Source: an uncultured Nitrospira sp.
GTDB lineage: Bacteria > Nitrospirota > Nitrospiria > Nitrospirales > Nitrospiraceae
Direction of reading: 5' to 3'
Length of the DNA stretch: 64,000 bases
Assembly: GCA_902500825.1 (NCBI GenBank)
Contig: CABVRX010000003.1
Location: 124,001-188,000, forward strand
The stretch's first letter is position 1; each line of letters begins with the position of its first letter. The notes under the pieces were generated by a model. That model was not told where the DNA came from and ran no database searches. It was given only the letters and a program-made list of their open reading frames with translations. This document shows, piece by piece, positions 18,961 through 26,747 of this stretch. The position numbers and the translations under genes were made by a program.

Positions 18961-20103
18961 ATGGCCCGTATCCTGATTATTTCCGGTGAGGCCTCCGGCG
19001 ACCTTCACGGAGCCAATCTAGCCAAAGCGCTGAAAGCGCGCGATCCTCAGGTCTCATTAGCAGGCATCGGGGGACGTGCGATGGAGGCGGCCGGAGTGCG
19101 ATTGGTGGAGGAGATGGGGCGATTTGACGTCATCGGCATGGTCGGCCCCTTCGCATTGGTGTCGATCATACGGCGGTTTATCACGATGCGGCGGTTATTT
19201 CGATCACAACAATGGGACACGGTGGTGTTTATCGACCACCCGGGTCTTAATATGCGTTTTGCGTATTTTGCCAAAGCGGCCGGTCTGCGGGTGGTGTACT
19301 ATATTGCGCCACAGATTTGGGCGTGGGCGCCTTGGCGGATCCATTGGGTCAAACAGCGGGTCGATCATGTCTTGGTCATACTTCCTTTTGAGAAGTCTCT
19401 CTACGACGAAGCGGGAATACGGTGTACGTTTGTCGGCCACCCCATATTGGATGCGGTCGCGGGCCGTTATAATCGGAGAGAGCTTCGCAGCGGATTCGGT
19501 TTCTCCGATGATGAGCGAGTGATCGCCCTGTTGCCGGGTAGCCGGGCTCATGAAGTGGAGGTTCTGTTGCCGATCCTCCTCGAAGCAGTAGAGAAATTGG
19601 CGCGCCGCGAACCCAAAACGAAGTTTATCCTGGCGCAAGCCTCCACCATACACGATAATCTGTTGCAGCCTCTTCTGGAGCGCAGTCCGGTTCCTATCGC
19701 ACTGGTGAAGGAGCAGGCCGCCGAAGCGATGGCCTTGTCGGATCTTGTGCTGGTGGCTTCGGGTACGGCTACGCTGCAAGCGGCCGTAGTCGGAACTCCG
19801 ATGGTATTGTTCTATCGAACCACGCCGCTGACCTTTTGGGTTGCGAATGTTGTGTTACGATTCGTGATTCGAGTCAAATGGATCGGGCTGGTCAATCTGG
19901 TGGCCGGCCGGACTGTCGTGCCGGAGTTGATCCAATCCGCTGCGACGGGGCAGCGATTGTATGAAGAAGCTCTCCGGATCTTGGAAGATCGATCGACATA
20001 CGATGAGATGAAGCGAGACTTGGCACAGGTCCGGGACGCCTTGGGTGAACCTGGTGCGTCAGCCCGAGCTGCAGAGGTGGTATTGGCGACATGTCAGGCT
20101 TAG
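18961..20103 (+). CDS. lpxB: Lipid-A-disaccharide synthase LpxB
   Basis: LpxB (GT19) condenses UDP-2,3-diacylglucosamine with lipid X to form the lipid A disaccharide at the inner membrane. The 380-residue protein shows the family N-terminus ILIISGEASGDLHGANLAKA, the segment VVFIDHPGLNMRFA, IAPQIWAWAPWR, FVGHPILD, LLPGSRAHEVE and the donor-binding ASGTATLQAAVVGTPMVLFY. Its 3' end overlaps msbA by 13 bp, suggesting co-translation. It receives the product of LpxI encoded two genes upstream. Confidence 0.97.
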   Translation: MARILIISGEASGDLHGANLAKALKARDPQVSLAGIGGRAMEAAGVRLVEEMGRFDVIGMVGPFALVSIIRRFITMRRLFRSQQWDTVVFIDHPGLNMRFAYFAKAAGLRVVYYIAPQIWAWAPWRIHWVKQRVDHVLVILPFEKSLYDEAGIRCTFVGHPILDAVAGRYNRRELRSGFGFSDDERVIALLPGSRAHEVEVLLPILLEAVEKLARREPKTKFILAQASTIHDNLLQPLLERSPVPIALVKEQAAEAMALSDLVLVASGTATLQAAVVGTPMVLFYRTTPLTFWVANVVLRFVIRVKWIGLVNLVAGRTVVPELIQSAATGQRLYEEALRILEDRSTYDEMKRDLAQVRDALGEPGASARAAEVVLATCQA

Positions 20104-21836
20104 AGCGATTCAAGCGGCTGATGGGGTATGTGAAGCCGTATCGTATACGGTTTCTGGCCGCCTTTGCCTGCTCAGGTCTGGTGGCACTGCTCAGCGGAGC
20201 CTATGCCTGGCTCGCGCGCCCGGTGTTGGACGATATCTTCATCCAGAAAGACGAACGGATGTTGTTGGTGTTGCCGTTGGCGCTCTTAGGGGTTGCAACG
20301 CTCAAGGCGGTGTTCAGCTACGGCGTGGGATATTTGATGGCCTATGTCGGCAATGGAGTCGTGGCGGACATCCGACAGCAATTGTTCCAGCAGCTGATGC
20401 GGATGTCCATCGGATTTCATGACACCAATACATCGGGACGCTTGGTCTCGCGGGTCGTGAACGATGTGGGGATGATGGCCAATGCCGCATCGAGCGTCGT
20501 CAAAGATATTTTTCAGAACGGTCTCACCTTTCTGGCGATGGTCGGCGTCATCCTCTACCAGAATTGGAGATTAGCGGCGATTTCTCTGGTTGTGATCCCG
20601 CTTTCGGCGCTGACGATGGTACGGGTGGGAAAACGGTTGAAGCGATTGGCGACCAGTGGGCAGGAACAAATGGGGGACATGGCCTCAACGCTCCAAGAAA
20701 CGTTCGCGGGCATCCGAGTCGTGAAAGCATTCGGGCGGGAGGAGGCGGAGGCTGAACGATTCAAGGAACGAAACCAGACCTTTCTTTCGACCACGTTGAA
20801 GTCCAATCAAGTCTGGTCGCTCGGCCATTCGCACATGGAGATCATCGGAGTGATCGGCGTCTCGACCATTATTTGGTATGGCGGTTACCTGGTCATTCAT
20901 GAGGCAATGACCCCCGGCGCCTTTTTCTCGTTCATGGCGGCGATGTTTATGGCCTATACTCCGATCAAAAAATTATCAGGCGCCAACAATTTGATTCAAC
21001 AGGCGCTGGCGGCGGCCGAGCGGGTCTTCGACGTGTTGGACTTGGAAACCGAACAGTCTCAGAATCGTGGTACGGTCCGGTTGGTAGGAATCAATCGGGC
21101 GATTGAATTCCAAGGTGTCTCGTTGCGGTATGAGAATCAGACGGCCCCGGCTCTGACCGATGTCGATTTCACGATTAAGCCCGGCGAAGTGGTTGCGCTC
21201 GTCGGAAGCAGCGGAAGCGGAAAGACCACATTGGTCAGTTTACTGCCGCGCTTCTATGAACCGACGATGGGTGGCATTTATATAGACGGCATCCCCTTGA
21301 CCTCATACGAGTTACAATCGCTGCGGGCCCATATCGGAATCGTTTCGCAAGAGATCGTCTTGTTCGATGATACTGTCCGAAGCAACATCGCGTTCGGAAG
21401 GGCCGGTGCCGTCCAGGCCGATGTTGAGCAGGCGGCAAAATTGGCTTATGCCCATGACTTTATTCTCCGCCTGCCGGAAGGATACGAAACGGTCATCGGG
21501 GAGCGCGGCCTCAAGCTGTCGGGCGGCGAGCGGCAGCGCCTGGCGATCGCCAGGGCTATTCTTCGCGATCCTCCGCTTCTGATCCTCGATGAAGCGACCT
21601 CGGCGCTCGACACCGAGTCTGAACGGATCGTACAGCTGGCCTTGGGCAATTTGATGAAGAATCGAACGACCCTGGTGATTGCGCATCGGCTCTCGACCAT
21701 TCAAAACGCGGATCGAATCGTCGTCTTGGATCGAGGGACTATTGTTGAAATAGGCTCTCATGACGAACTGCTTCGTCTGGGAGGCGTCTATCACCGCCTG
21801 CATGCCCTACAATTTCAGGATGTGACCAGTGTGTGA
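20091..21836 (+). CDS. msbA: Lipid A flippase, ABC transporter MsbA
   Basis: MsbA flips lipid A-core across the inner membrane using ATP. The 581 residues comprise a six-span transmembrane half (about residues 15-310) fused to a nucleotide-binding domain with Walker A GSSGSGKTT, signature LSGGERQRLAIARA, Walker B LLILDEATSALD and the H-loop IAHRLSTIQNADRI. Start ATG 20091 lies inside lpxB. Position between lpxB and the Kdo/heptose genes supports MsbA over other half-transporters, though the substrate cannot be read directly. Confidence 0.92.
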   Translation: MSGLERFKRLMGYVKPYRIRFLAAFACSGLVALLSGAYAWLARPVLDDIFIQKDERMLLVLPLALLGVATLKAVFSYGVGYLMAYVGNGVVADIRQQLFQQLMRMSIGFHDTNTSGRLVSRVVNDVGMMANAASSVVKDIFQNGLTFLAMVGVILYQNWRLAAISLVVIPLSALTMVRVGKRLKRLATSGQEQMGDMASTLQETFAGIRVVKAFGREEAEAERFKERNQTFLSTTLKSNQVWSLGHSHMEIIGVIGVSTIIWYGGYLVIHEAMTPGAFFSFMAAMFMAYTPIKKLSGANNLIQQALAAAERVFDVLDLETEQSQNRGTVRLVGINRAIEFQGVSLRYENQTAPALTDVDFTIKPGEVVALVGSSGSGKTTLVSLLPRFYEPTMGGIYIDGIPLTSYELQSLRAHIGIVSQEIVLFDDTVRSNIAFGRAGAVQADVEQAAKLAYAHDFILRLPEGYETVIGERGLKLSGGERQRLAIARAILRDPPLLILDEATSALDTESERIVQLALGNLMKNRTTLVIAHRLSTIQNADRIVVLDRGTIVEIGSHDELLRLGGVYHRLHALQFQDVTSV

Positions 21837-21845
21837 CGACGTGAG

Positions 21846-21866
21846 GTGCTGAGTGCTGAGTGCTGA
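21846..21866 (+). repeat. Three perfect tandem copies of the heptamer GTGCTGA at a start codon
   Basis: The 7-bp unit occurs at 21846, 21853 and 21860. Each copy carries a GTG, and only the middle one is in frame with the acyltransferase that follows. A change in copy number would alter which GTG is in frame. Confidence 0.8.
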
Positions 21867-22541
21867 GGGTGGGAAGAGTCTGAAGAAACTCGCCGAACAG
21901 TGGGTGAAATTCTCTCTGTTACCCCCGATTGCAGCTACTGCTATTCGCGGCATCGCACGCTCGATGCGCTATGAGACTCGCGGGCACGAAGCGGTTGATG
22001 CGCTGTATCGAGAAGGACGAAATATTATCGTGGCCTTTTGGCATGCCCAGCAGTTGATGATCCCGTTCGGCTATCGAGGAACAGGCGCCCATGTCTTAAT
22101 CAGCCAGCATGGCGATGGAGAGATTATCGCCCGGATCATCGCCCGGTTCGGCCACGAAGCGGTGCGTGGGTCGAGTACGCGCGGAGGCGCTGGAGCGCTT
22201 CGTGCTCTGATTAAGCTTGGACGGTCAGGTCAGGACGTGGCGGTGACACCAGATGGCCCGAAGGGCCCGCGTCACGTCGCAAAACTCGGAGTGATTCATC
22301 TGGCGAAAGCAACCGGCCTTCCCATCGTGCCGTTGGCCTTTGCCTGTTCAAAAAAAAACTCTTTGCGAGCTGGGATCGCTACATGGTCCCGTACCCGTTT
22401 TCCAAAGGGTTATTTCTCTACGGAAATCCGCTCTGGGTCTCGCGCGAAGCCGATGAAGCCTCGCTTGAGGCGACTCGCCTGGAGCTTGAGACGGTCCTCA
22501 ATCGGCTGACAGATCAGGCGGAACAAGACATTATTCGTTAA
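21853..22541 (+). CDS. Lysophospholipid acyltransferase-like protein (DUF374), apparent -1 frameshift at an A9 run
   Basis: The protein resembles LpxL-like/DUF374 acyltransferases found between msbA and waaA. It shows FWHAQQLMIPFGYRG (about residues 56-70), RGSSTRGGAGALRAL, the TPDGPKGPRHVAKLGVI block and LPIVPLAFACS. Read straight, the frame ends at 22509 with an atypical Arg/Ser-rich tail. Shifting to the -1 frame inside the A9 run at 22350-22358 gives a natural family C-terminus (KLFASWDRYMVPYPFSKGLF and on) ending in TAA at 22539-22541. Either one A is missing or the ribosome/polymerase slips there. The start lies in a GTGCTGA tandem repeat. Confidence 0.8.
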
Positions 22542-22602
22542 CCCCGAGCGGTACGGCCAATCTCCGTTTGACGCGTGATGAGTGGCGGTCAGTGGTGTTT
22601 CC

Positions 22603-23940
22603 ATGTGGAAGCTTCTCTATAACATCGGCCTGCTTCTCGCGACTCCTGTGATCGTGGGCGTCCTTCTGGCCAAGCCACGTTGTAGACCGGGATTTTTCCA
22701 GCGGATGGGTTGGCAGGACTATTCCCCGAACGGTGGTGGGTCGTATCAGCCGCTTATTTGGGTACATGCGGTGTCGCTTGGTGAAGTGGTGGCGGCAGCG
22801 CCGCTCGTTAAGGCGCTGCACAAGCGCCATCCGGAGTTTCGCTATATCGTGACGACGGTAACCGAGACCGGCCGTGAGGCGGTCGAACAACGCTTAAGGG
22901 GTATTGCCGAACATCGATACGCTCCGCTCGATTTTTCCTGGGCCGTGGCCGGTATGGTTCGGCGCCTGCGTCCAACACTCTATGTGTTCGTCGAGACCGA
23001 ACTATGGCCGAACTTACTGTGGACGTTACGAAAGCAGGATGTGCCCTCTGTATTGGTGAATGGACGGTTGTCTTCCCGGTCGTTTCACCGTCAGGACGTG
23101 CCCGTGATCCGGTCCTTCTATCGCTCCGTGCTTCAGACACTGACTCTCGGTCTGATGCAATCCGATCGGGATAGAGATCGTCTTGTTGCGTTGGGGGCCG
23201 ATCCGACGCGGGTTCATGTGACCGGCAATATCAAGTTCGATCAACCGCTTCCGGATGTTCGAGCGGATGAGTCGCTTCGACAAAGCTTCGGGCTTGATGA
23301 GCATGAACAGTTGATTCTCGCCGGCAGTACACATCCCGGAGAGGAGGAACAGTTGGTCTCGGCTTACCGGCAGATCGTGAAGACCTATCCCTCAGCGGTC
23401 TTGATGTTGGCACCTCGCCATATCGAGCGGACGGACCGAGTCGAATCGACGCTTCGAGAAACGGGAGTTGTCGTACAACGGAGAAGTCGGATTCTGGAGA
23501 AGCAAACCGGCCCACGCGTGATCATTTTGGATACCAGGGGAGAGTTGTCCCGCGCATATCGAGAAGCTGTCGCGGCATTCGTCGGCGGAACTCTGGTTCC
23601 CGTGGGTGGGCACAATTTGTTGGAACCGGCTGTGTGGGGCATACCGGTCATGTTTGGGCCACATACAGACCATTGCGCTGAGGTCGCGACGCTCTTGTCC
23701 CAGGCCGGAGGAGGTCGACGAGTAGCGGGAGTGGAGGATCTCGTCGCCTCGCTTGAAGAATGGCTGGGTCAGCCTGAAATTCGATATCAGGTAGGGCAGG
23801 CTGCAAGACAGGCGGTATTGGACAATCAAGGCGCGCTCACACGGAGTCTGGAGCTTATTGAAACGTGTTTCCGCGCGGCTCCTTCGTATTCCGCCCCTTG
23901 TGTGGAGCCAGGGACGGGACCTCTTATGGCCAAACGCTGA
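22603..23940 (+). CDS. waaA: 3-deoxy-D-manno-octulosonic acid (Kdo) transferase
   Basis: WaaA (KdtA, GT30) transfers Kdo from CMP-Kdo to lipid IVA at the cytoplasmic face of the inner membrane. The 445-residue product starts with a membrane-anchoring helix (MWKLLYNIGLLLATPVIVGV), then WVHAVSLGEVVAAAPLV, TETGREAVEQ, PLDFSWAV, FVETELWPNLL, GSTHPGEEEQL, and the donor-site region FVGGTLVPVGGHNLLEPA. ATG 22603 fits the family N-terminus; GTG 22582 is possible. lpxK follows directly, as in many genomes. Confidence 0.96.
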   Translation: MWKLLYNIGLLLATPVIVGVLLAKPRCRPGFFQRMGWQDYSPNGGGSYQPLIWVHAVSLGEVVAAAPLVKALHKRHPEFRYIVTTVTETGREAVEQRLRGIAEHRYAPLDFSWAVAGMVRRLRPTLYVFVETELWPNLLWTLRKQDVPSVLVNGRLSSRSFHRQDVPVIRSFYRSVLQTLTLGLMQSDRDRDRLVALGADPTRVHVTGNIKFDQPLPDVRADESLRQSFGLDEHEQLILAGSTHPGEEEQLVSAYRQIVKTYPSAVLMLAPRHIERTDRVESTLRETGVVVQRRSRILEKQTGPRVIILDTRGELSRAYREAVAAFVGGTLVPVGGHNLLEPAVWGIPVMFGPHTDHCAEVATLLSQAGGGRRVAGVEDLVASLEEWLGQPEIRYQVGQAARQAVLDNQGALTRSLELIETCFRAAPSYSAPCVEPGTGPLMAKR

Positions 23941-23941
23941 T

Positions 23942-25033
23942 ATGGCATTCTTGCATCCTGGACAACCGGTCCGTAAAGGACTTGGGTGGGTTGCTGGGTT
24001 GTACGGACTCATCATCCGATTTCGGCTGTGGTGCTATCGGAAAGGTTGGCTGACTACGACACGGCTGTCCTGTCGTGTCGTGAGTGTGGGCAATCTGACG
24101 GTCGGAGGGACAGGCAAAACCCCCATCGTCATTTTCCTGACGGAGTGGTTGTTGGCCAAAGGACAGAGGGTCGCGATCTTGAGCCGGGGGTACAAACGGG
24201 CAAGCAAGGCACCTCGTCTGCTCGTGTCCGATGGGTCGAGAATTTTGGTTGGCCCGCTGGAAGCGGGAGACGAGCCGTTTCTCATGGCGCAGCGTTGCCC
24301 ACAGGCGATTGTCGCGGTCGGAGCCGATCGAGTTGCGCTAGGGCAATGGGTCTTGGAGCAGCATCCGATCGACTGCATCGTGTTAGACGATGGTTTTCAA
24401 CATCGGTCGCTTCATCGCGATGTCGATCTGGTGCTGCTGGATGCTACCGATGCCACAGGACTTGACGCGCTGCTTCCGGCCGGAAGATTACGGGAACCCT
24501 TGACCGAGCTGTGTCGAGCGAATGCGGTCATGATTACGCGTGCCGATTCTCGTCAGGATGTGGACGCGATTCGTAGTCGATTGAAAACGATTTCTTGCTC
24601 ATCCGGCGACGCCGTTGAAGTTGTGTTTCGACCGGAGAGCGTCATCGCAATCGTTTCGGGTGAGCGGCAACCGGTTGAATGGTGCCGAGGAAAAAAAGCT
24701 TGGTTGGTCAGCGGTATCGGGAATAGCCGATCGTTCCGTCGATCAGCCGAATCTATGGGGGGTGAGATCCTGGGTGAGGCCGCATTTGAAGACCATCACA
24801 GCTATCGCCATGACGATATCGAGAAGATTCGCGCTAATCTACAGGCTACTGGTTGCGAGATCATTCTGACGACAGAGAAGGACGGAGGGAAATTGCGTCC
24901 ATTGCTCATGCCAAGCGACTCCTGGTGGATGCTTCGCCTTGGGACGGAAATCGTGCGCGGGAAAGAGCGGCTGTACAGATTGATCGATCGGTCGCTCATC
25001 GATGAAACAGTACCGGTGGAGCCTCGTGCGTAG
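23942..25033 (+). CDS. lpxK: Tetraacyldisaccharide 4'-kinase LpxK
   Basis: LpxK phosphorylates the 4' position of the lipid A disaccharide to give lipid IVA. The 363-residue protein has the N-terminal hydrophobic/amphipathic helix (GLYGLIIRFRLWCYRKGWL), the P-loop GNLTVGGTGKTP (about residues 51-62), ILSRGYKR, AGDEPFLMA, the ILDDGFQHR-like motif CIVLDDGFQHRSLHRDVDLV, and the C-terminal DHHSYRHDDIE and TTEKDGGKL stretches. ATG 23942 begins two bases after the waaA stop. The end overlaps the waaF-gmhB fusion. Confidence 0.95.
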   Translation: MAFLHPGQPVRKGLGWVAGLYGLIIRFRLWCYRKGWLTTTRLSCRVVSVGNLTVGGTGKTPIVIFLTEWLLAKGQRVAILSRGYKRASKAPRLLVSDGSRILVGPLEAGDEPFLMAQRCPQAIVAVGADRVALGQWVLEQHPIDCIVLDDGFQHRSLHRDVDLVLLDATDATGLDALLPAGRLREPLTELCRANAVMITRADSRQDVDAIRSRLKTISCSSGDAVEVVFRPESVIAIVSGERQPVEWCRGKKAWLVSGIGNSRSFRRSAESMGGEILGEAAFEDHHSYRHDDIEKIRANLQATGCEIILTTEKDGGKLRPLLMPSDSWWMLRLGTEIVRGKERLYRLIDRSLIDETVPVEPRA

Positions 25034-26747
25034 GAATCTGCCCCGCAAAATTCTGGTGCGAGCGCCGAATTGGATCGGCGATGCCGTCATGTGTGAGCCG
25101 GCCGTCCGGGGGCTGCGGTCTCTGTTCCCTGAGGCGGAGGTGACGATGCTCGCCAAACCTGCCGTCGCGGAGCTCTTCATCGCTCGCCCGGAGCTTAACG
25201 CTGTGCTGGTGTACGATGACAAGAGGGTTCATGCGGGAATTTCAGGAAAATGGTCGCTTGCCGGTACATTGCAAGGCCACCGCTTTGATTTGGCGGTGTT
25301 GTTTCAGAACGCGTTCGAAGCCGCATTTCTTGCGTGGCTCGCCGGCATTCCACGGCGATATGGGTATGCCACGGATGGAAGGGTCTTGTTTCTGACCGAA
25401 CCGGTCGCTGTTCCCAACGGTTCTGTGGCGATGCATCAGGTTGCGTACTATTGGAACTTGTTGAGACCATTGGGATTGGCCGGCGTAGCCCCTCTCCCCA
25501 CGCTGCTTGTTTCTGCAGAGGAGGATCGAAGGGTCGATGTGCGGCTTGCTTCCGCCGGTATTGATTCGTCGGATCTCATTATTGGGATCAATCCCGGATC
25601 GACTTACGGCAGCGCCAAACGTTGGTTGCCCGACAGATTTGCCGAGGTCGCGAAACGACTTGTGCGGCGATTGGAACAGGCTGAGAGCGCGCATGGCGCA
25701 GTGGTCATTCTTGGAGCGAAGGGAGAGGAATCGCTGGGGCAGGCCATTGCGGCTCAGCTTGGCGGACGATCGGTTGTCTTATCCGGCGCGACGACTATTC
25801 GTGAGCTCATGGCGGTGGTGAAACGTTGTCGCGTGCTGATTACGAACGATACTGGACCGATGCATATTGCCGCGGCTTTCGGTGTGCCGGTCGTTGCGGT
25901 GTTCGGTCCTACGGACTGGCGCACCACTGCGCCCTACGGACAAGAACGCTCGGCTGTGCGGGAAGCCGTAGATTGTGCGCCGTGTCTCCTTAGGGAATGC
26001 CCGATCGATCACCGTTGCATGACTCGCATTTCCGTTGACCGGGTGTATGACGCGGCAGTGCAACAGATTGCGGGTGTATCGAGTCTTTCTGGTCGATCCG
26101 GCGCTGCGGATCAGCCGGAACAGACCGCCCGAACAGACCACACGAACATTCTTTCCGGCTATACCATCTTTCTTGATCGAGATGGAACGCTCAATCCCGA
26201 TCCCGGCTACATCAACTCTCCCGATCAGTTTGAACTGTTTCCCGACGTGCCTGAGGCGCTCGCCAGGCTGAAGCGGGCCGGTGCTCGTTTGATCGTCGTC
26301 ACCAATCAATCAGGGCTCGCGCGAGGATTCTTGACGCGCGATGACCTCAATGCCGTGCACATGAAACTTAGGCGTCTCCTCGATGGTGTCGGTGGGTCAC
26401 TCGACGGGATCTATTTTTGTCCTCACCATCCTGACGACGGCTGCGACTGTCGAAAACCGAACCGTGGGATGATCGACCAGGCGGTGCGGGAATGGGGGGT
26501 GAATCTTGACCGATCCTATCTGATCGGCGATCACATCCGCGATATCGAGTTGGCGAAGCGGATTGGTGCGCGAAGTGTCTTGGTGACGACGGGGGTCATT
26601 TCGCCTCAGGAAGCAGAAAGTCTGAAAGCCTCGGGGGCGGTCCCAGATTGGATCGCATCCTCCCTGGCGGAGGCTGCCGACTGGCTGTTGTCCGATGTAA
26701 GCAAGTCGTCCGTGCAGCTCCGCGAGCGTCAGGTGTCGCAGCCGTGA
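25026..26747 (+). CDS. waaF-gmhB: Fusion: ADP-heptose:LPS heptosyltransferase II + D,D-heptose 1,7-bisphosphate phosphatase
   Basis: The protein has 573 residues from GTG 25026, which is preceded by GGTGGAG; ATG 25002 also fits. The first ~345 residues are a GT9 heptosyltransferase II: ILVRAPNWIGDAVMCEPA, GINPGSTYGSAKRWLPDRFA, NDTGPMHIAAAFGVPVVAVF and PCLLRECPIDHRCMTRI. From about residue 378 comes a HAD phosphatase of the GmhB family: FLDRDGTLNPDPGYI (catalytic Asp384 and Asp386), VVTNQSGLARG, the Cys/His zinc site YFCPHHPDDGCDCRKP, and LIGDHIRDIELA. GmhB makes heptose-1-phosphate on the way to ADP-heptose, so precursor formation and transfer sit on one chain. The other ADP-heptose genes (gmhA, hldE, hldD) are not in the window. 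Confidence 0.93.
   Translation: MRRNLPRKILVRAPNWIGDAVMCEPAVRGLRSLFPEAEVTMLAKPAVAELFIARPELNAVLVYDDKRVHAGISGKWSLAGTLQGHRFDLAVLFQNAFEAAFLAWLAGIPRRYGYATDGRVLFLTEPVAVPNGSVAMHQVAYYWNLLRPLGLAGVAPLPTLLVSAEEDRRVDVRLASAGIDSSDLIIGINPGSTYGSAKRWLPDRFAEVAKRLVRRLEQAESAHGAVVILGAKGEESLGQAIAAQLGGRSVVLSGATTIRELMAVVKRCRVLITNDTGPMHIAAAFGVPVVAVFGPTDWRTTAPYGQERSAVREAVDCAPCLLRECPIDHRCMTRISVDRVYDAAVQQIAGVSSLSGRSGAADQPEQTARTDHTNILSGYTIFLDRDGTLNPDPGYINSPDQFELFPDVPEALARLKRAGARLIVVTNQSGLARGFLTRDDLNAVHMKLRRLLDGVGGSLDGIYFCPHHPDDGCDCRKPNRGMIDQAVREWGVNLDRSYLIGDHIRDIELAKRIGARSVLVTTGVISPQEAESLKASGAVPDWIASSLAEAADWLLSDVSKSSVQLRERQVSQP

Follow-up and report, generated by a model that had tools for sequence, protein, structure and literature searches.

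The Nitrospira genome considered here carries, between msbA and waaA, an acyltransferase gene that spans 21853-22541 when both of its reading frames are counted, and the question raised by this locus is how a complete enzyme could be made from a gene that changes frame at a run of nine A's. Frame 0 reads TCA AAA AAA AAC TCT TTG at the run, and its ORF of 218 aa ends in a non-canonical tail. Stepping one base back (-1) at the A9 reads KKKLFASWDRYMVPYPFSK... up to the stop at 22539-22541; the C-terminal peptide in this frame includes GLFLYGNPLWVSR, and the recoded product is 229 aa long if counted from the GTG at 21853. A first-pass annotation of the window, by which we mean the whole 64,000-nt stretch that was analysed, had placed the run exactly where a -1 shift restores a normal C-terminus, and our analysis located it at that point. 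The features are collected in Table 1.

Table 1. Features of the lpxJ-like locus and its neighbours, with positions in the window
Feature	Position	Strand	Remarks
msbA, upstream neighbour	20091..21836	+	TIGR02203 624.7 bits, above the cut-off of 602
GTGCTGA x3 spacer repeat	21846..21866	+	clade-limited; outside the proposed mechanism
lpxJ-like (DUF374) frame-0 ORF	21853..22509	+	218 aa; PF04028 E 4e-28
A9 run (putative slippage site)	22350..22358	+	within TCA AAA AAA AAC (22348-22359); same codon in relatives
-1 frame part, canonical C-terminus	22356..22541	+	stop 22539-22541; dN/dS 0.148 past the run
Frame-0 tail of the unshifted product	22360..22509	+	not conserved as protein; dN/dS 1.43; stop positions vary
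Trp-Asp codons, W172 and D173 of Rickettsia typhi LpxJ by spacing	22371..22376	+	-1 frame only
waaA/kdtA (Kdo transferase), downstream neighbour	22582..23940	+	PF04413 E 3e-61

The acyltransferase ORF matched PF04028 (DUF374) with 97.2 bits against a cut-off of 26.8, and no NCBIfam model matched it. DUF374 is the LpxJ family of late lipid A acyltransferases (PMC6148475), and on its domain content the gene is a DUF374/LpxJ-type lipid A late acyltransferase; the effect on lipid A acylation proposed by the first-pass annotation is plausible because of this family membership. The host genome (3.79 Mb, 99.8% complete) gave one match to the profile of the gene, which is thus single-copy, and the lipid A cluster around it has the order lpxA, lpxI, oxidoreductase, lpxB, msbA, lpxJ-like gene, waaA, lpxK. 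No match to the LpxL/LpxM family, PF03279, was found in the host genome; the same search was positive in 4 of 14 control genomes, E. coli included. Acyl transfer to a lipid A precursor is a putative function that the gene neighbourhood and the absence of PF03279 support. The NCBIfam matches of waaA/kdtA all fell under their cut-offs, and the true start of that ORF may lie further in. The start of the lpxJ-like gene may be the GTG at 21853 or the codon at 21880, 3' of the heptamer repeat, because relatives have a start codon (ATG or GTG) in the place corresponding to 21880. Elsewhere in the window, a single ORF (25002-26747) fuses a glycosyltransferase family 9 (heptosyltransferase) domain with a HAD-type hydrolase domain.

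In R. typhi LpxJ, alanine at W60, H61, D86, D132, W172 or D173 abolishes activity (PMC6148475). The Nitrospira gene has equivalents of all six residues, as judged from residue spacing, and the last two are encoded in the -1 frame only. The distances are 24 against 25 in R. typhi from His to D86, 70 against 71 from His to D132, and 40/41 in both from D132 to Trp/Asp; the Trp-Asp codons begin 12 bases past the run, and the pair was invariant among 37 in-frame homologues. Because the product of unshifted reading lacks this essential pair, it should be inactive. A structural model of the in-frame homologue L077 from Malonomonas rubra (pLDDT 94.0, pTM 0.90), which stands in here for the window's own product, has the LPLAT fold, with Z scores of 13.9 for PatA, 13.7 for PlsC and 11.4 for LpxM. 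In this model, the part beyond the site folds into the final strands and a C-terminal helix of 25 residues. When solved structures were searched by sequence, PlsC came out at E 0.0014, along with weaker matches.

Substitution patterns across 31 loci of the genus showed a dN/dS of 0.080 in frame 0 upstream of the run, and downstream of it the ratio was 0.148 in the -1 frame versus 1.43 in frame 0. Since protein-level selection past the run acts only in the -1 frame, these values show this frame to be translated in nature, selection being silent on the mechanism. Frame 0 stayed open over 46 codons in 26 of the 31 loci, against 18.6 +- 2.2 in synonymous shuffles; we do not rely on this as a sign that frame 0 is kept open on purpose, because the loci share ancestry and, in other lineages, a stop follows immediately. 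Among the six loci of family f15, five (L156-L160) read CTC TGA right after the run, which gives a short unshifted product, and the stop of L155 comes later.

A lone A9 in 64 kb is unsurprising, with a shuffle mean of 0.63 and at least one such run in 35 of 100 shuffles; chance fails on the placement of the run at the frame change and on its conservation there. A protein search gave matches in 57 of 59 genomes, the host genome counted. All 34 matching genomes of the genus (L002-L035, every one read) have the A9 at the same codon, with the C-terminus in the -1 frame throughout save for L034, in which an upstream N blurs the register. Families f2 and f3 have the same arrangement with A9, or A10 in L039 and L040. 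The f4 loci L038, L043 and L046 are in frame and have no run, and the f4 match L041 is a more distant copy, also in frame.

A genome-wide pattern search (A9, then 11-12 bases, then TGGGAY, with the reversed pattern as a control) gave matches in 117 of 295 Nitrospirota genomes, compared with one for the control. By our own count, the pattern occurred in 40/40 genomes of the genus, 37/39 other genomes of the family, 18/18 of f3 and the single genome of f2 (1/1). G207 and G211, which belong to the same family and have genomes of 1.7-1.8 Mb, gave neither the pattern nor a gene-profile match at E <= 1e-15. The matches in at least two genomes, G185 and G244, are probably due to chance, because these are absent among the genomes with a gene-profile match. 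The same run and register were also found in single-contig genomes (G022, G024 and G194). In G159, L177 (G159:C20:268800-270400) is an lpxJ 3' fragment with an intact A9 and -1 C-terminus and unrelated sequence upstream, apparently reflecting either a rearrangement or a misassembly.

After removal of repeated N-terminal proteins, our comparison set comprised 207 sequences, 131 split at the run and 76 in frame. Protein similarity alone had selected 107 of the split sequences and all 76 in-frame ones, and the pattern had selected the other 24. The label "split" required a run of at least seven A's, and the converse was tested separately on the other 76: Trp-Asp was in frame 0 in 76/76, with none split without a run, and the longest stretch of A's at the site, within 24 bases, was four. 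The split sequences had nine A's in 108 cases and ten in 23 (131/131), always with the C-terminus in -1, and the Trp-Asp codons were in the -1 frame in 131/131 and in frame 0 in none. They cover two codon phases (101 and 30 sequences), and the base after the run was C in 100, G in 19 and T in 12.

The conserved run, its constant register and the selection acting in -1 beyond it strongly support the first-pass suggestion of programmed slippage at the A9. The reading that we prefer, and judge likely, is an LpxJ-type gene split at A9 or A10 whose active enzyme would arise through RNA polymerase slippage. The polymerase would slip on the A's and add one A, or drop two, in part of the transcripts, and ordinary translation of the slipped transcripts would yield the active 229-aa enzyme. 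Unslipped transcripts would give a protein that has the catalytic His and Asp but neither the essential Trp-Asp nor the last strands and C-terminal helix, and it should be inactive. Less surely, the slipped fraction may set the amount of active LpxJ, with the MsbA and WaaA of the cluster read in ordinary frames. It is possible, with the balance somewhat against it, that the split gene is a regulatory recoding switch in Nitrospirota and other phyla, one that came or went several times at the same codon and in which the ratio of active LpxJ to a catalytically dead N-terminal form would set lipid A acylation.

That slippage is merely tolerated has a chance only a little short of even. Here a base would have been lost or gained at an A-rich Lys run and the enzyme rescued ("saviour" slippage) with no regulatory value, so that the disagreement with the switch concerns the purpose of slippage and leaves its mechanism as in our preferred reading. 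The lack of conservation of the frame-0 tail is in keeping with mere tolerance, as is the occurrence of in-frame, run-free copies in family f4 and in L143. A second phylum, that of G321, bears on the point through its interleaved in-frame and split copies, in-frame A8 and A9 relatives included. The pattern occurred there in 27 of 345 genomes (control 9; own count), 26 of the 27 being confirmed as the lpxJ-like gene, and a later sample took the best 30 protein matches of the 240 matching genomes among the 345. Nine of these were split, all with 9 or 10 A's and from genomes already represented, and 21 were in frame, including one with A9 (L242) and two with A8 (L246 and L264). The idea that all run-bearing copies are out of frame is refuted by these three; the run therefore does not force the split, and exit from the split state is possible. 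A one-base change of the run would, however, end the dependence on slippage, yet no in-frame copy was found in the readable loci of f1 and f3, for which reason we lean towards selection for the split. The close relatives L242 (G451) and L243 (G389) of this second phylum have in-frame Lys runs, with A9 followed by GG in the former and an AAG interruption in the latter, and resemble the split form in mirror image or in a state of transition.

Beyond the order, the loci read from f5, f8, f9, f14, f15, f18 and f25 and one of two from f6 were split, whereas those read from f17, f20, f21 and f31 were in frame, with the run absent at the site. The small phylum of G325 had the pattern in 3 of 9 genomes, whose loci were read. 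In L075, L089, L103 and L119, the split gene has waaA next to it downstream and, upstream, a two-domain ABC exporter that its position identifies as msbA. An N-terminal tree of 182 sequences showed that the split state is clustered (5 label changes against a shuffled mean of 58), and on a tree of 111 sequences, which required 7 changes, the grouping of the split sequences in one clade was not rejected (AU p 0.62). A 117-sequence tree, in which the 21 in-frame sequences were added and many distant ones omitted, gave 11 changes, at least 3 of them forced by starred branches, and weakened the case for a single origin. On these counts and trees, the split state was gained or lost several times and has a patchy distribution in two further groups of phylum rank.

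The same product could in principle come from programmed -1 ribosomal frameshifting on A9 transcripts, the ribosome slipping one base back on A AAA AAC. We consider this unlikely as the route to the enzyme, transcriptional slippage being the more likely of the two mechanisms on the sequence evidence. The slippery heptamer is present in every run, as A AAA AAC at 22353-22359 in the window and as A AAA AAG or A AAA AAA in relatives. Against two control stretches, the RNA past the run also shows slightly greater stability (mean z -1.04 versus -0.46 and 0.17; -1.86 in the window), and the window's own sequence folds a GGGAYC/GGUCCC hairpin downstream. As a conserved stem, however, this hairpin was rejected, since no compensatory (both-sided) changes were found in 37 sequences and RNAalifold gave -0.06 kcal/mol; a Shine-Dalgarno-like element upstream of the run was seen in just 3 of 131 split sequences.

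Codon usage at the run speaks more directly to the mechanism. The codon containing the first A was TCA in 99 of 101 sequences and TTA in 2, against TCA in 86 of 914 Ser codons (9%) elsewhere, although these sequences are phylogenetically related and hence not independent draws. The first A is thus fixed by TCA even though the ribosomal heptamer has no need of it. Lys codons outside the run in the same genes were AAA in 287 of 699 cases, and in the other codon phase (30 sequences) the run was again at least nine long. The silent positions are frozen as A, so that the length of the run appears to be protected beyond the need of A AAA AAN. Synonymous divergence was minimal at the run (0.077 in a 9-codon window versus 0.481 overall). 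Silent-site divergence within the genus is also low over 22335-22390, several codons to each side of the run and beyond the run itself, a constraint that is unexplained by slippage on the A's alone or by shared RNA structure.

A9 runs are apparently scarce in the host genome (7 against about 37 extrapolated from the shuffle mean of one window), which resembles genomes in which A9 is slippage-prone (PMC1088944), and its six other A9 runs, judged by eye, showed no clear frame disruption. At G000:C15:33895-33903 (L205), an in-frame A9 lies in what appears by eye to be the gene of a peptide chain release factor; slippage there would shorten the protein.

Phase variation, in which replication slippage would change the length of the run or of the heptamer repeat and toggle the gene, is very improbable. 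Homopolymers and tandem repeats are mutable and both are present, and the three GTGCTGA copies over the start do place each GTG in another frame, as the first-pass annotation had pointed out, because 7 mod 3 = 1. The exact triplet has no second occurrence in the genome, and a two-copy pattern with at most one mismatch had 2 matches in the window, with 0.02 expected from shuffles. The register of the run is, however, constant and out of frame in all 131 split sequences, and a single in-frame A9 was found, among the 21 in-frame sequences of the second phylum. The same annotation had proposed a comparison between strains; across the genomes compared here, the A-run is conserved, in line with programmed slippage, whereas the heptamer is absent from 24 of the 33 genus loci L002-L034, single in 3, doubled in 2 and tripled in 4, which argues against phase switching. 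The in-frame GTG of the repeat is that of the second copy from the end, so that gain or loss of copies would leave the gene unswitched as long as two remain. Homopolymers are error-prone and the ORF would look odd in a single genome, but the sequencing error once suggested is ruled out and a decayed pseudogene has next to no chance, since the same out-of-frame run and register recur in many separately assembled genomes and dN/dS values of 0.08 before the run and 0.15 after it are unlike those of a pseudogene.

Among known systems, dnaX of Thermus thermophilus resembles the lpxJ-like gene as a chromosomal gene with an A9 and two products (PMC1088944; PMC3711429). In dnaX, the full-length protein comes from the templated frame and the shorter one from slippage, which has been measured, whereas the full lpxJ enzyme would need the slip, which we infer (PMC1088944; PMC3711429). 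Closer in this respect is tssM1 of Citrobacter rodentium, where transcriptional slippage at an A11 is needed for the full-length protein and both short and long forms are made (PMC4256274); it differs in being a secretion gene, described in two species, in contrast to a lipid A gene that extends across the order and into other phyla. The GeneTack survey, which covered one Nitrospirae genome, describes a magnesium chelatase cluster with an A7, A9 or A11 run at a conserved -1 transition, and a "Tetraacyldisaccharide kinase /acyltransferase" cluster, for which it considers frameshifting possible and describes two translationally coupled genes (PMC3711429). The latter is near lpxJ in function, and the main text of that paper does not name DUF374. 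The LpxJ proteins of Rickettsia and Epsilonproteobacteria share DUF374 and the essential residues, whose spacing is identical or almost so; unlike for the Nitrospira gene, the sections covered of the paper describing them mention no frameshift (PMC6148475). The literature searched, with subscription papers mostly outside it, contained no account of frameshifting in lpxJ/DUF374; "LpxJ" and "frameshift" occurred together in one paper, on jujube, and the first 300,000 of the 475,107 characters of a review (PMC5009743) contain none of "acyltransferase", "lpx" and "Nitrospira".

In the papers compared here, insertion sequences form the largest group of slippage-dependent genes (PMC1088944), and chromosomal cases are scattered; lpxJ would add a chromosomal envelope gene, one that appears to be slippage-dependent in almost all of the Nitrospirales genomes sampled. 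Gene callers are expected to call the split lpxJ truncated or broken, and the probable lipid A acyltransferase of these nitrite-oxidising bacteria would thereby go unnoticed. With split copies, in-frame copies with A8 or A9 and run-free relatives all occurring naturally, the choice between regulatory and tolerated slippage is testable.
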